A stretch of DNA of 64,000 bases from Methylococcus sp. (lineage in GTDB: Bacteria; Pseudomonadota; Gammaproteobacteria; Methylococcales; Methylococcaceae): assembly GCA_028688525.1 (NCBI GenBank), contig JAQTYA010000004.1, forward strand, positions 1 through 64,000, read 5' to 3'. Each line of letters begins with the position of its first letter. The stretch's first letter is position 1. Shown piece by piece: positions 29,289 through 61,032 of the stretch. The notes below the pieces were generated by a model. That model searched no databases and was not told the DNA's origin. It was given only the letters and a program-made list of their open reading frames with translations. Both the position numbers and the translations under genes were made by a program.

Positions 29289-30734
<1,446 letters not shown>

Positions 30735-56412: not shown

Positions 56413-58401
56413 ATGTTCAGAAAACTCACTTTTCTCAGTCTGATCCTTTTATTTGGCGCGCTGGTGATCGGTGCCTTCATCCGCATTTCCGGCGCCGGCC
56501 TCGGCTGCCCCGCCTGGCCCGGCTGCTACGGCGCGCCTCTAGTCGACGAACAATCTGCGGCGATGATGGCAGCCGTCGGCGGCAAGGGGCTGAAGTGGCT
56601 GTGGCTGGATTGGGGGCACCGCTATCTCGGCGCCGCCGTCGGCGTACTAGTGTTGGCGCTCGCCATTATGGTCTGGTGGCTGCCGAGCCGCCGCGGCCGT
56701 GCGGCCGCGCTGGCGGCGGCGCTTCTGCTGCTGGTGGGGGTGCAGGCGGGGCTGGGATTGTGGGGGCATTACGCCACACCGATGCCGCTAGTTTCGGCTG
56801 CGCATCTGTTGACCGGCTTCCTGATGTTGGGCTGCGCTTACTGGCTTTATCTCGGCGTCAAGCCCAGCGTTGAGGCGGCGGCGGTCCGTGGAGCGTTGGG
56901 GCTGCGAGTCCTGGCCCGCTTCGGTCTGTTGCTGCTGCTGGCCGAGATCGCCCTGGGCGGCTGGACCGACGCCCAGCATGCGGGCCTCGCCTGCCCGGAT
57001 TTTCCGACGTGCTTGGGCCTCCCCTGGCCGGATGTGGATTGGGAGCGCGGCTTCACGCTCTGGCCCAACATCGCGGCGGATTACGCCGGTGGCGTGTTGC
57101 CGGTCGAGGCGCGGGCAGCCATCCATTTCGCGCACCGGCTCGGCGCGGTGGCGGCGTTTCTGGTGCTGAGCCTGTTGGCCATGGGGGCCAGTTCCAACCG
57201 CAATGCGGCCCCGATCAGCAAGCCGGCGGTGCTGCTGAGCTTCCTGCTGCTGCTCCAAGTCGGGCTCGGCATCCTGAGCGTCCTGCTGCGGCTGCCGGTG
57301 GCTGTCGCCGTCGCGCACCAGGCGGTGGCGGCGCTGCTGCTGCTCAACGTGGTGCATATCAACGTCTACCTGCGCCGGAGTCTGCCGGAAGCCGCCGCCG
57401 TTCCCGAAGCGGTGCCGGCGCGCCCGCCGGTCGAGGCGGCACCTCCGCCCCCCGCGCCGGAAACCCTGTTCGAGCGTCTGCGCGGCCAGCTCGGCAAGAC
57501 CCGCAGCGGCCTGACGGGGCTCCTATCCGTCCTGGGCCGCGGCCGCATCGACCGCGAGTTGCTGGATGAGCTCGAAGAGCAATTGCTGATGTCCGATGTC
57601 GGCGTCAACGTGACCCGGAACATCGTCGCCGATCTGGGTAACGGACTGGATAAGCAGGAGCTGGCCGATGGCGAGAGTCTGCGCAACCGGGTGCGCGGAC
57701 GCCTGCTCGACATCGTCCGTCCCAGCAGCGTGCCGCTGGTCATCCCGCCGGAAGTGCGGCCTTTCGTCATCCTGGTGGTCGGGGTCAACGGCGTGGGCAA
57801 GACCACGACCATCGGCAAGCTTGCCAAGCGTTTGCAGAACGAGGGCCACAGCGTCATGCTGGCGGCGGGGGACACTTTCCGAGCCGCCGCCGTCGAGCAG
57901 CTCCAGACCTGGGGCGAGCGCAACAAAATCGCGGTGATCGCTCAGCACAGCGGGGCCGATTCGGCCTCGGTGATCTACGACGCTGTGGAAGCCGCCAAGG
58001 CGCGCGGGGTCGACGTGCTGATCGCCGACACAGCGGGCCGTCTGCATACCAAGTCGAACCTGATGGAAGAGCTGAGCAAGATCAAGCGCATCATCGGCCG
58101 CCTCGACGAGACCGCGCCGCACGAGGTGCTGCTGGTGCTGGACGCCGGTACGGGCCAGAACGCCATGTCCCAGGCCAAGTTGTTTAACGAAGCGGTCGGC
58201 CTCACCGGCCTGGCGGTGACCAAGTTGGACGGTACGGCTAAGGGCGGAGTGATTTTCGCGCTGGCGCAGCAGTTCGGGATCCCGATACGCTACATCGGCA
58301 TCGGGGAGGGCATCGACGATCTGCGCGATTTTGACGCCACTCAGTTCATCGACGCCCTGTTCGCCGAAGAAGGGACGAGCGGAGCCGCCCGCTTGCATTA
58401 A
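56413..58401 (+). CDS. Predicted fusion: heme A synthase (CtaA/COX15) - Pro/Ala linker - SRP receptor GTPase FtsY
   Basis: Single 662-codon ORF with no in-frame stop. Codons ~1-322: CtaA with His-bearing WGHRYLGA, SAAHLLTGF, IHFAHRLGAV, VAVAHQAVAALLLL. Codons ~352-662: FtsY NG domain with GVNGVGKTTTIGKLA, DTFRAAA, DTAGRLH, TKLDGTAKGG, GIGEGIDDL. Confidence 0.85.
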   Translation: MFRKLTFLSLILLFGALVIGAFIRISGAGLGCPAWPGCYGAPLVDEQSAAMMAAVGGKGLKWLWLDWGHRYLGAAVGVLVLALAIMVWWLPSRRGRAAALAAALLLLVGVQAGLGLWGHYATPMPLVSAAHLLTGFLMLGCAYWLYLGVKPSVEAAAVRGALGLRVLARFGLLLLLAEIALGGWTDAQHAGLACPDFPTCLGLPWPDVDWERGFTLWPNIAADYAGGVLPVEARAAIHFAHRLGAVAAFLVLSLLAMGASSNRNAAPISKPAVLLSFLLLLQVGLGILSVLLRLPVAVAVAHQAVAALLLLNVVHINVYLRRSLPEAAAVPEAVPARPPVEAAPPPPAPETLFERLRGQLGKTRSGLTGLLSVLGRGRIDRELLDELEEQLLMSDVGVNVTRNIVADLGNGLDKQELADGESLRNRVRGRLLDIVRPSSVPLVIPPEVRPFVILVVGVNGVGKTTTIGKLAKRLQNEGHSVMLAAGDTFRAAAVEQLQTWGERNKIAVIAQHSGADSASVIYDAVEAAKARGVDVLIADTAGRLHTKSNLMEELSKIKRIIGRLDETAPHEVLLVLDAGTGQNAMSQAKLFNEAVGLTGLAVTKLDGTAKGGVIFALAQQFGIPIRYIGIGEGIDDLRDFDATQFIDALFAEEGTSGAARLH

Positions 58402-58405
58402 GCCC

Positions 58406-59068
58406 GTGCTGGAATTCAAAGAGGTCTACAAGCGCTATCCCGAGTTCGGCGAAGCCCTGCACGACGTTAGCTTCCACATCGGGCGCGGCGAGCGGGTCTT
58501 CCTGACCGGGCATTCCGGCGCCGGAAAGAGCACCCTGCTCAAGCTGGTTGCCGTGATCGAACGGGCCACGCGGGGCCAGATCGTGCTAGACGGCCAGAAC
58601 ATCACCCGCGCCTCCAACCGGGAGATTCCTTACATCCGGCGCAAGCTCGGTCTGATCTTCCAGGATTACAAGCTGCTTTATGACCGCCCGGTGTTCGAGA
58701 ACGTCGCGCTGCCCCTGGTCATCGCCGGATTCAATCCGAGCGAGGTCAGCCGGCGGGTGCGCGCGGCGCTGGGAAAAGTGGGCTTGTTGTCCAAGGAGAA
58801 GCGGTTGCCGCAAACCCTGTCGGGGGGCGAGCAGCAGCGCGTCGGCATCGCCCGGGCGATCGTCCACAAGCCGGATTTCATCCTTGCCGACGAGCCCACC
58901 GGCAACCTCGATTCTGAGGCCGCGCAGGAGGTCATGGACATCTTTCGCGATTTCAACGAAATCGGCGTGACCCTGCTCATCGCCAGCCATGATGAGGCGC
59001 TGATTTCCCGTGTCGGCGGGCGCGTCCTGCGCCTTCAACACGGTAGCCTAGCGGAGGCGCAGGCATGA
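58406..59068 (+). CDS. ftsE: Cell division ATP-binding protein FtsE
   Basis: [52 protein letters not shown] start proposed. Confidence 0.95.
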
Positions 59069-60063
59069 AGCGGCAGCGCCGCCGCGCTTTGCGGCAGCCC
59101 GCTCCGCCCTCGCGCAGGCGGCGCGGCGGGCCCAGCCTGGGCGACCGGCTGCAGAGCTATCTGGTCTTGCATGTGCAGACGGCGAAAGCGGCACTGCGGC
59201 GGATGCGGGGAGCCCCATTCGCCATGGCGCTGACTCTCCTGGTCATCGCCGTGACTTTGGCCTTGCCCACCAGTTTTCACCTGCTGGTGAAAAACCTCCG
59301 GATGGTCGGAGGTGACCTGGAAGCAACCAACGAGATTTCCCTTTACCTCAAGCCGGAACTATCCAACGATGCGGGGCGTAAGTTGGCTGAGCGCTTGCAA
59401 AGCCACGCGCAGATTGCTGAGGCGCGGTTGATCACCAAGGAGGCGGGGATCGAGCAGTTGAAGGCCTATAGCGGTTTCGGCGAAGCCTTGGCTATGCTGA
59501 ATTTCAACCCGCTACCGGTAGTGATCGGCATCCGCCCCAAGGATTCGCTGGCTCAGCCCGAGCAGGTGGAGCGCCTGGTGGCCGAATTGAAGACTCTGCC
59601 CGAAGCCGATCTGGTGCAGAGCGACATTCAGTGGATGCACAGGCTCCACGCTATGCTCCAGGTCGCCGAACGCAGTTTTGGCGTCCTGGGCGTGCTGCTG
59701 GGGGCGGCGGTCGTATTCATCATCGGCAACACCATCCGCCTGGAGCTGTATGGCCGCCGCGAGGAGATCATCGTGCAGAAGCTGCTGGGGGCGACCGACC
59801 GCTTCATCCGGCGGCCTTTCCTGTACACCGGCTTCTGGTTCGGATTTCTCGGCAGCGTCGGCGCTTGGATCGTCGTCGGCGTCATGCTGCTGGTCGTGCG
59901 GGCGCCGATCCAGCAGCTCAATACGCTCTACGGCAGCGATTTTTCGCTGGCCTTTCTCGGCTTCAGAGAGTCGATTTTGCTCATCGGTGGCGCCTGTTTC
60001 CTGGGTATAGCGGGTGCCTACACCGTGCTCGTCTACCACCTCAGAGACGTTCGGCCCGAGTAG
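59065..60063 (+). CDS. ftsX: Cell division protein FtsX
   Basis: Four-TM FtsX topology, overlaps ftsE; DLVQSDIQWMHRLHAMLQVAERSFGVLGVLL...GRREEIIVQKLLGATDRFIRRPFLYTG. Confidence 0.94.
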   Translation: MKRQRRRALRQPAPPSRRRRGGPSLGDRLQSYLVLHVQTAKAALRRMRGAPFAMALTLLVIAVTLALPTSFHLLVKNLRMVGGDLEATNEISLYLKPELSNDAGRKLAERLQSHAQIAEARLITKEAGIEQLKAYSGFGEALAMLNFNPLPVVIGIRPKDSLAQPEQVERLVAELKTLPEADLVQSDIQWMHRLHAMLQVAERSFGVLGVLLGAAVVFIIGNTIRLELYGRREEIIVQKLLGATDRFIRRPFLYTGFWFGFLGSVGAWIVVGVMLLVVRAPIQQLNTLYGSDFSLAFLGFRESILLIGGACFLGIAGAYTVLVYHLRDVRPE

Positions 60064-60081: not shown

Positions 60082-60110
60082 TTGTCGAGCGCGGGAACTT
60101 ACGCTAGGGT
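60082..60110 (+). promoter_or_regulatory. Possible sigma70-type promoter for rpoH (TTGTCG-17-TAGGGT)
   Basis: Hexamers with 17-bp spacing, -10 adjoining the CIRCE-like operator. Confidence 0.35.
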
Positions 60111-60136
60111 TGGCACTCAAACCAGTCGAGTGCTAA
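60110..60136. promoter_or_regulatory. CIRCE-like HrcA operator upstream of rpoH
   Basis: TTGGCACTC-aaaccagtc-GAGTGCTAA; consensus TTAGCACTC-N9-GAGTGCTAA, one mismatch in 18 conserved positions, exact 9-nt spacer. Confidence 0.85.
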
Positions 60137-60153: not shown

Positions 60154-61032
60154 ATGACAATAGGGCATCCCATGACTTATGAATTGACTCTCCCGACCCA
60201 GTTGCCGCTAGGCTCCATCGACGATTACTTCGCCGCGGTGAACCGCCTGCCCCGCTTGGAAGCGGACGAGGAGCGGGAGCTGGCAATCCGCTTCCGCGAC
60301 GAGCAGGATCTGGAAGCCGCCCGGCGTCTGGTACTTTCCAATCTGCGCTTCGTGGCTTACATCGCCCGCGGCTACCTCGGTTACGGCTTGCCGCTGGCGG
60401 ACCTGATCCAGGAGGGCAACATAGGCTTGATGAAGGCGGTGAAACGCTACGATCCGGACGTGGGCGTGCGGCTGGTGTCGTTCGCAGTGCACTGGATCCG
60501 CGCCGAGATCCACGAATTCATCATCCAGAACTGGCGCATCGTTAAGATCGCGACCACCAAGGCCCAGCGCAAGCTGTTCTTCAACTTGCGCAAGATGAAG
60601 AACCGGCTGGGCTGGCTCAGCCCCGAAGAAGCCGCAGCGGTGGCCGAGGAGCTGGGTGTGGACATCGAAGACGTCTACAAGATGGAAAACCGGCTGAACA
60701 ATCCGGATATGGCGCTCGAGGCGCACGGCGACGAGGACGGCGAGGACCGCGAAGGCCATGCGCCCATCCATTACCTTCAGCAGGAGGGGGCGGATCCGGC
60801 CTTGCTGGTCGAGCACAGCGAATGGGAAAACCGCCAACAGGAGAAGCTGCACAAAGCCATAGGCCAACTAGATGACCGCAGCCGGGACATCGTGGCCAGC
60901 CGCTGGCTCAGCGAGGAAAAGCTGACGCTGCACGATCTGGCGGCGCGCTACAACGTCTCTGCCGAGCGCATTCGCCAGCTTGAGAACAGCGCCATGAAAA
61001 AGCTGCGTAACGCTCTAGCGGACGCGGCCTAA
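60154..61032 (+). CDS. rpoH: RNA polymerase sigma-32 factor
   Basis: LRFVAYIARGYLGYGLPLADLIQEGNIGLMKAVKRYDPDVGVRLVSFAVHWIRAEIHEFIIQNWRIVKIATTKAQRKLFFNLRK (RpoH box). Confidence 0.97.
   Translation: MTIGHPMTYELTLPTQLPLGSIDDYFAAVNRLPRLEADEERELAIRFRDEQDLEAARRLVLSNLRFVAYIARGYLGYGLPLADLIQEGNIGLMKAVKRYDPDVGVRLVSFAVHWIRAEIHEFIIQNWRIVKIATTKAQRKLFFNLRKMKNRLGWLSPEEAAAVAEELGVDIEDVYKMENRLNNPDMALEAHGDEDGEDREGHAPIHYLQQEGADPALLVEHSEWENRQQEKLHKAIGQLDDRSRDIVASRWLSEEKLTLHDLAARYNVSAERIRQLENSAMKKLRNALADAA

Follow-up and report, generated by a model that had tools for sequence, protein, structure and literature searches.

HrcA, acting at the CIRCE operator, usually represses groESL or dnaK operons, and in the model enterics rpoH, the gene for sigma-32, is under the control of mRNA thermosensing and proteolysis. 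The textbook account of sigma-32 control derives from E. coli, an organism without hrcA. Among the closest described systems is the control of groESL and hrcA-grpE-dnaK by HrcA/CIRCE in B. subtilis and many bacteria; the locus described here, which lies in a stretch of 64,000 nucleotides of Methylococcus sp. DNA (the window), has the same operator sequence and spacing in a genome that carries hrcA, and groESL and hrcA of the same genus carry CIRCE as well. Two points set it apart from this classical regulon: the gene behind the operator encodes a sigma factor, and the operator overlaps the -10 element of a predicted sigma-E promoter, whereas CIRCE at groESL of the genus closely follows a sigma-70 promoter, TTGACA-N17-TATCAT. 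For Geobacter sulfurreducens, a CIRCE site before rpoH had already been predicted, as one listed case in a study that names groESL as the only constant HrcA target (PMC545781). That case shares both operator and gene with our locus, and differs in that the accessible text of the study describes no sigma-E element (PMC545781); a Geobacteraceae genome (L349) also carries CIRCE before rpoH and, unlike the window, has no sigma-E element at the -16 register. The RpoE-dependent promoter P3 of E. coli rpoH (PMC8103513) agrees with a TGAACTT-N16-TCTGA element that we find 121 nt upstream of rpoH and downstream of ftsX; both genomes have sigma-E elements before rpoH, the window with GGAACTT-N16-TCAAA in the equivalent place, the difference being that E. 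coli has no CIRCE there. In our search of the literature on HrcA control of rpoH or on sigma-E/CIRCE overlap, the Geobacter prediction was the only one found, and no description of the overlap or of how widely CIRCE precedes rpoH in the class came up; Permina and Gelfand 2003 and Ueki and Lovley 2007 lie outside the coverage of that search, and we do not claim priority.

An original prediction, made from the letters of the window, had placed a CIRCE operator in front of rpoH. Its sequence, coordinates, score of 17/18 and exact spacing were all reproduced on recheck (Table 1): the operator reads TTGGCACTC-AAACCAGTC-GAGTGCTAA, which deviates by one mismatch from the CIRCE pattern TTAGCACTC-N9-GAGTGCTAA, with the spacing of 9 retained. 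It is the only CIRCE match in the window at ≤3 mismatches, where a mean of 0.02 such sites per window is expected by chance and 2 of 100 shuffles of the window contain one, and a reversed-pattern control gave no match in the same genome. What had been proposed at the outset did not include the sigma-E promoter that overlaps the operator, the wide distribution of the arrangement or the prior Geobacter prediction.

Table 1. Features of the rpoH promoter region, numbered from the first nucleotide of the window.
Feature	Position	Strand	Basis or remark
CIRCE operator, predicted HrcA binding site	60110..60136	none	left arm 60110-60118, right arm 60128-60136
sigma-E -35 element GGAACTT	60094..60100	+	exact consensus; kept class-wide at offset -16 from CIRCE
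sigma-E -10 element TCAAA	60117..60121	+	overlaps end of left CIRCE arm; spacer of 16 to -35
Predicted transcription start region	60126..60129	+	inferred from -10 position
rpoH (sigma-32)	60172..61032	+	TIGR02392; probable start by genus comparison; alternative in-frame ATG 60154
AGGG, likely ribosome-binding site of rpoH	60162..60165	+	sequence; kept with ATG 60172 in genus
ftsX, upstream gene	59065..60063	+	TIGR00439, 338.9 bits; E. coli has the same neighbour

The downstream open reading frame is a true rpoH, as had been called, with a full-length match to TIGR02392 (411.4 bits against a cut-off of 323.1). The predicted distance of 17 bp to the start codon applies to ATG 60154, but the start is more likely ATG 60172, 35 nt from the end of CIRCE, because this ATG and its AGGG are conserved in the genus; a first-ATG annotation of rpoH would thus be 6 codons too long. 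Further upstream on the forward strand (56413-58401), a single 662-aa frame contains a heme A synthase (COX15-CtaA, PF02628, residues 4-313) followed in frame by FtsY (SRP54_N and SRP54 GTPase, residues 366-650), either as a real fusion or through an assembly error.

The genome of the window (214 contigs, 87% complete) encodes one hrcA by profile search, with the DNA-binding and C-terminal domains both present (PF01628, 213 bits; PF03444, 34 bits; both above cut-off, the few N-terminal residues of the query being arbitrary), followed by a frame reading as grpE and then dnaK, the latter two named from sequence. Genome-wide, CIRCE occurs at ≤3 mismatches at two sites only, one upstream of rpoH and one upstream of hrcA. 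Each of the five other genomes of the genus has a third site, before groESL; in our genome the groES that matches the CIRCE-bearing copy is so close to the end of contig C174 that the sequence breaks off short of the expected site, and the missing groESL operator is thus probably an assembly gap. A rewiring of the regulon, considered on the basis of the missing site, was rejected given this position of the matching groES. A second, diverged groES (L066, G000:C178) is preceded at the usual distance, at about 29833-29859, by CIRCE in a broken form, with the right arm GAGTGCTAA intact and the left arm disrupted.

The "plausible -10" noted next to the operator in the original prediction is weak (TAAGAA), and the convincing promoter is of the sigma-E type. 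Positions 60094-60121 read GGAACTT-N16-TCAAA, an exact match to the sigma-E consensus of a GGAACTT -35 and a TCAAA -10 with a spacer of about 16 (PMC4890791, PMC12153292), and the consensus is kept in the genus. When 86 sequences from the class were anchored on CIRCE, GGAACTT was conserved outside the operator, at -16 to -10 relative to the first CIRCE base, and positions 7-11 of CIRCE read TCTAA, TCTCA or TCAAA. At offset -16, 34/86 sequences match the -35 at ≥6/7 bases, compared with a mean of 0.2 and a maximum of 2 sequences at the same score over control offsets -70 to -21. The fifth base of the -10 is A in 55 of 59 sequences with a -35 (≥5/7) versus 11 of 27 without (Fisher 3e-7, ignoring relatedness). 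In addition, the element is found without CIRCE: of 29 named loci, selected mainly because CIRCE is missing there, the top score is reached by 11, with zero expected by shuffling; the top scorers include Dickeya, Kluyvera and Lelliottia, and TGAACTT occurs in Serratia and others. Thus, the element is not just a component of the HrcA operator.

A -35 below 5/7 is seen in 27 of the 86 CIRCE-bearing sequences, among them Methylocaldum and several Burkholderiales, and it is these families, which retain CIRCE without a sigma-E -35, that speak for a different arrangement, namely that HrcA controls rpoH at a housekeeping sigma-70 promoter whose elements come from the operator itself (TTGGCA from the left arm and an extended -10, TGCTAAnnT, from the right arm and three more bases), with the sigma-E elements secondary or silent in the window. 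Such a promoter also fits the T found at alignment position 29 in 77/86 sequences of the class, which then read TGCTAAAAT or similar. In the window, however, the final T of this -10 is missing, and the sigma-E consensus is exact; no sigma-70 promoter-like site was found upstream of rpoH in the window, and we consider this arrangement unlikely. A sigma-E promoter overlapped by CIRCE is the reading that we prefer for this locus. A sigma-54 site was rejected on inspection of the sequence, as TGGCAC is present but TTGC does not occur at the right spacing, and Rfam gave no match at the site and two elsewhere in the window, far below their gathering scores.

Conservation upstream of rpoH extends well beyond the window. 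CIRCE precedes rpoH in 6/6 genomes of the genus and, at ≤3 mismatches, in 52 of the 58 genomes of the order for which the sequence upstream of rpoH was read; four of the six exceptions, 99-100% complete, are also without hrcA. Across the class Gammaproteobacteria, sampled mostly as one genome per family with assemblies ≥90% complete, the site lies within about 600 bp upstream of rpoH (with the distance taken to the first residue matched rather than to a mapped start) in 82 of 90 genomes with hrcA versus 4 of 30 genomes without, absence of hrcA here meaning one profile search; the Fisher value for this contrast (2e-15), like that for the -10 base, is too small because the counts come from related genomes that are not independent. 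Eight genomes with hrcA thus have no site at the rpoH read, one of them (G090) having it before its other rpoH copy, and four without hrcA retain it. Since hrcA is present in the genome of the window, and since the repeat is conserved in relatives and mostly missing where hrcA is missing, the original prediction is supported, two of the grounds it had named for its own refutation, no hrcA and no conservation, being contradicted.

Both CIRCE arms are near-perfectly conserved across about 80 families, and the named carriers include Methylocaldum, Nitrosomonas, Pseudoalteromonas, Dyella, Halothiobacillus, Trinickia, Pandoraea, Polynucleobacter and Herbaspirillum; the sampled Vibrio, Shewanella, Aeromonas, Haemophilus and enteric genomes have no CIRCE before rpoH. 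Among the matches listed, 74 of 75 CIRCE sites in 31 genomes, a set that was not chosen by us, lie at groES (31), rpoH (29) or hrcA (14), the remaining one being unassigned, and by this tally rpoH is almost as regular a target of CIRCE as groES is. A chance origin of the inverted repeat, for which nothing but its short length can be said, has next to no probability given the low expectation per window, the empty reversed-pattern control and the retention of its position across the class, which already contradicts chance; 600 shuffled upstream regions contained no CIRCE at ≤3 mismatches. Outside the class, CIRCE stands before rpoH in three genomes of family f150 (G284, G244 and G197), for which an older origin, transfer and parallel gain are alternatives. 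That family aside, 0/36 genomes have CIRCE before their best rpoH copy although 25 of them carry it elsewhere, so that the link to rpoH is not general to the phylum.

Taken at a probability of roughly 0.7, our main reading of these sequences is that rpoH is transcribed from a sigma-E promoter whose -10 lies under CIRCE, and that HrcA, tuned by GroE, would block this transcription. It builds on the operator, on hrcA, on their co-distribution and co-loss and on the sigma-E consensus in its fixed register, all of which are directly seen in the genomes. Weighing against it are the CIRCE-bearing families without a sigma-E -35, the eight hrcA-bearing genomes with no site at the rpoH read and the four that keep the site without hrcA. 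The original prediction had already proposed that HrcA gates sigma-32 synthesis, and the presence and co-conservation of hrcA are supportive of that proposal. An alternative that grants the binding is that HrcA has little effect on rpoH output and that mRNA structure and proteolysis set sigma-32, in keeping with E. coli, where sigma-32 is controlled mainly after transcription; against it, the near-perfect arms and their loss alongside hrcA point to a selected function of the operator, and we regard it as improbable, somewhat more so than the sigma-70 arrangement.

In the sigma-E/HrcA reading, for which we infer binding by both proteins, repression and feedback through GroE, HrcA in unstressed cells would be active through free GroE chaperonin and occupy the operator over the -10 and the start site, covering about -18 to +9, such that RNA polymerase would be excluded and rpoH silent. 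Dependence of HrcA activity on GroE is established in other systems (PMC6032397). Once unfolded protein fills GroE, HrcA activity would be lost and the rpoH promoter would open, most strongly when envelope stress sets sigma-E free as well. In turn, sigma-32 would direct the chaperone genes, and the extra GroE would re-arm HrcA. The gate would thus combine activation by sigma-E with a veto by HrcA that holds until GroE is saturated, and elsewhere in the class HrcA would occlude sigma-70-driven transcription of rpoH too.

The fate of the site after loss of hrcA can be followed within one genus, g20, where two genomes with hrcA read GGAACTT..TTAGCACTCTTATAGGGTGACTGCTAA (G041) and TGAACTT..TTAGCAGTCTTATGTTGCGAGTGCTAC (G055), and two without it read TTAGCGGTC..GAGCGTTAA (G058) and TTGCTGGTC..GAGTGTTAA (G052). 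CIRCE has decayed in both of the latter, with the -10 TCTTA kept and a -35 of TGAACTT in G058 and TGAACCT in G052; in G047, also without hrcA, more of both operator and promoter is gone. This decay represents one event or few and is no statistical sample. The E. coli control genome gave no match to the HrcA model, and its rpoH P3 looks like the same promoter minus CIRCE. Here we speculate, at even odds, that the ancestral gammaproteobacterial rpoH promoter was a fusion of a sigma-E promoter with an HrcA operator, integrating envelope stress with cytoplasmic GroE status, that rpoH and groESL are the core HrcA targets of the class, and that P3 is a remnant of this fusion that shed its operator after the loss of hrcA, gating there having been replaced by mRNA thermosensing and sigma-32 proteolysis.

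If rpoH is among the core targets of HrcA in most Gammaproteobacteria with hrcA (the beta group included), the two classical heat-shock systems would form a cascade rather than alternatives in most of the class. A single promoter would sense both envelope stress and chaperonin load, E. coli P3 would have an evolutionary source, and the lineages in which this control of rpoH has been lost would become predictable.

Variants of the operator were also encountered. A co-varied palindrome, TTAGCAGTC-N9-GACTGCTAA, stands at the same place before rpoH at L328, L347 and L284 and in G070 and G278, that is, in Lysobacteraceae-type genomes and family f18, and is more diverged in Xanthomonas pisi; this suggests that HrcA specificity may have changed in Lysobacteraceae and family f18. 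In addition, G249, G265, G269, G281, G289 and G293 carry CIRCE-like sites in which one arm has become TTGGTGCTAA or AGGTGCTAA, a recurrent asymmetric variant in genera of another class.
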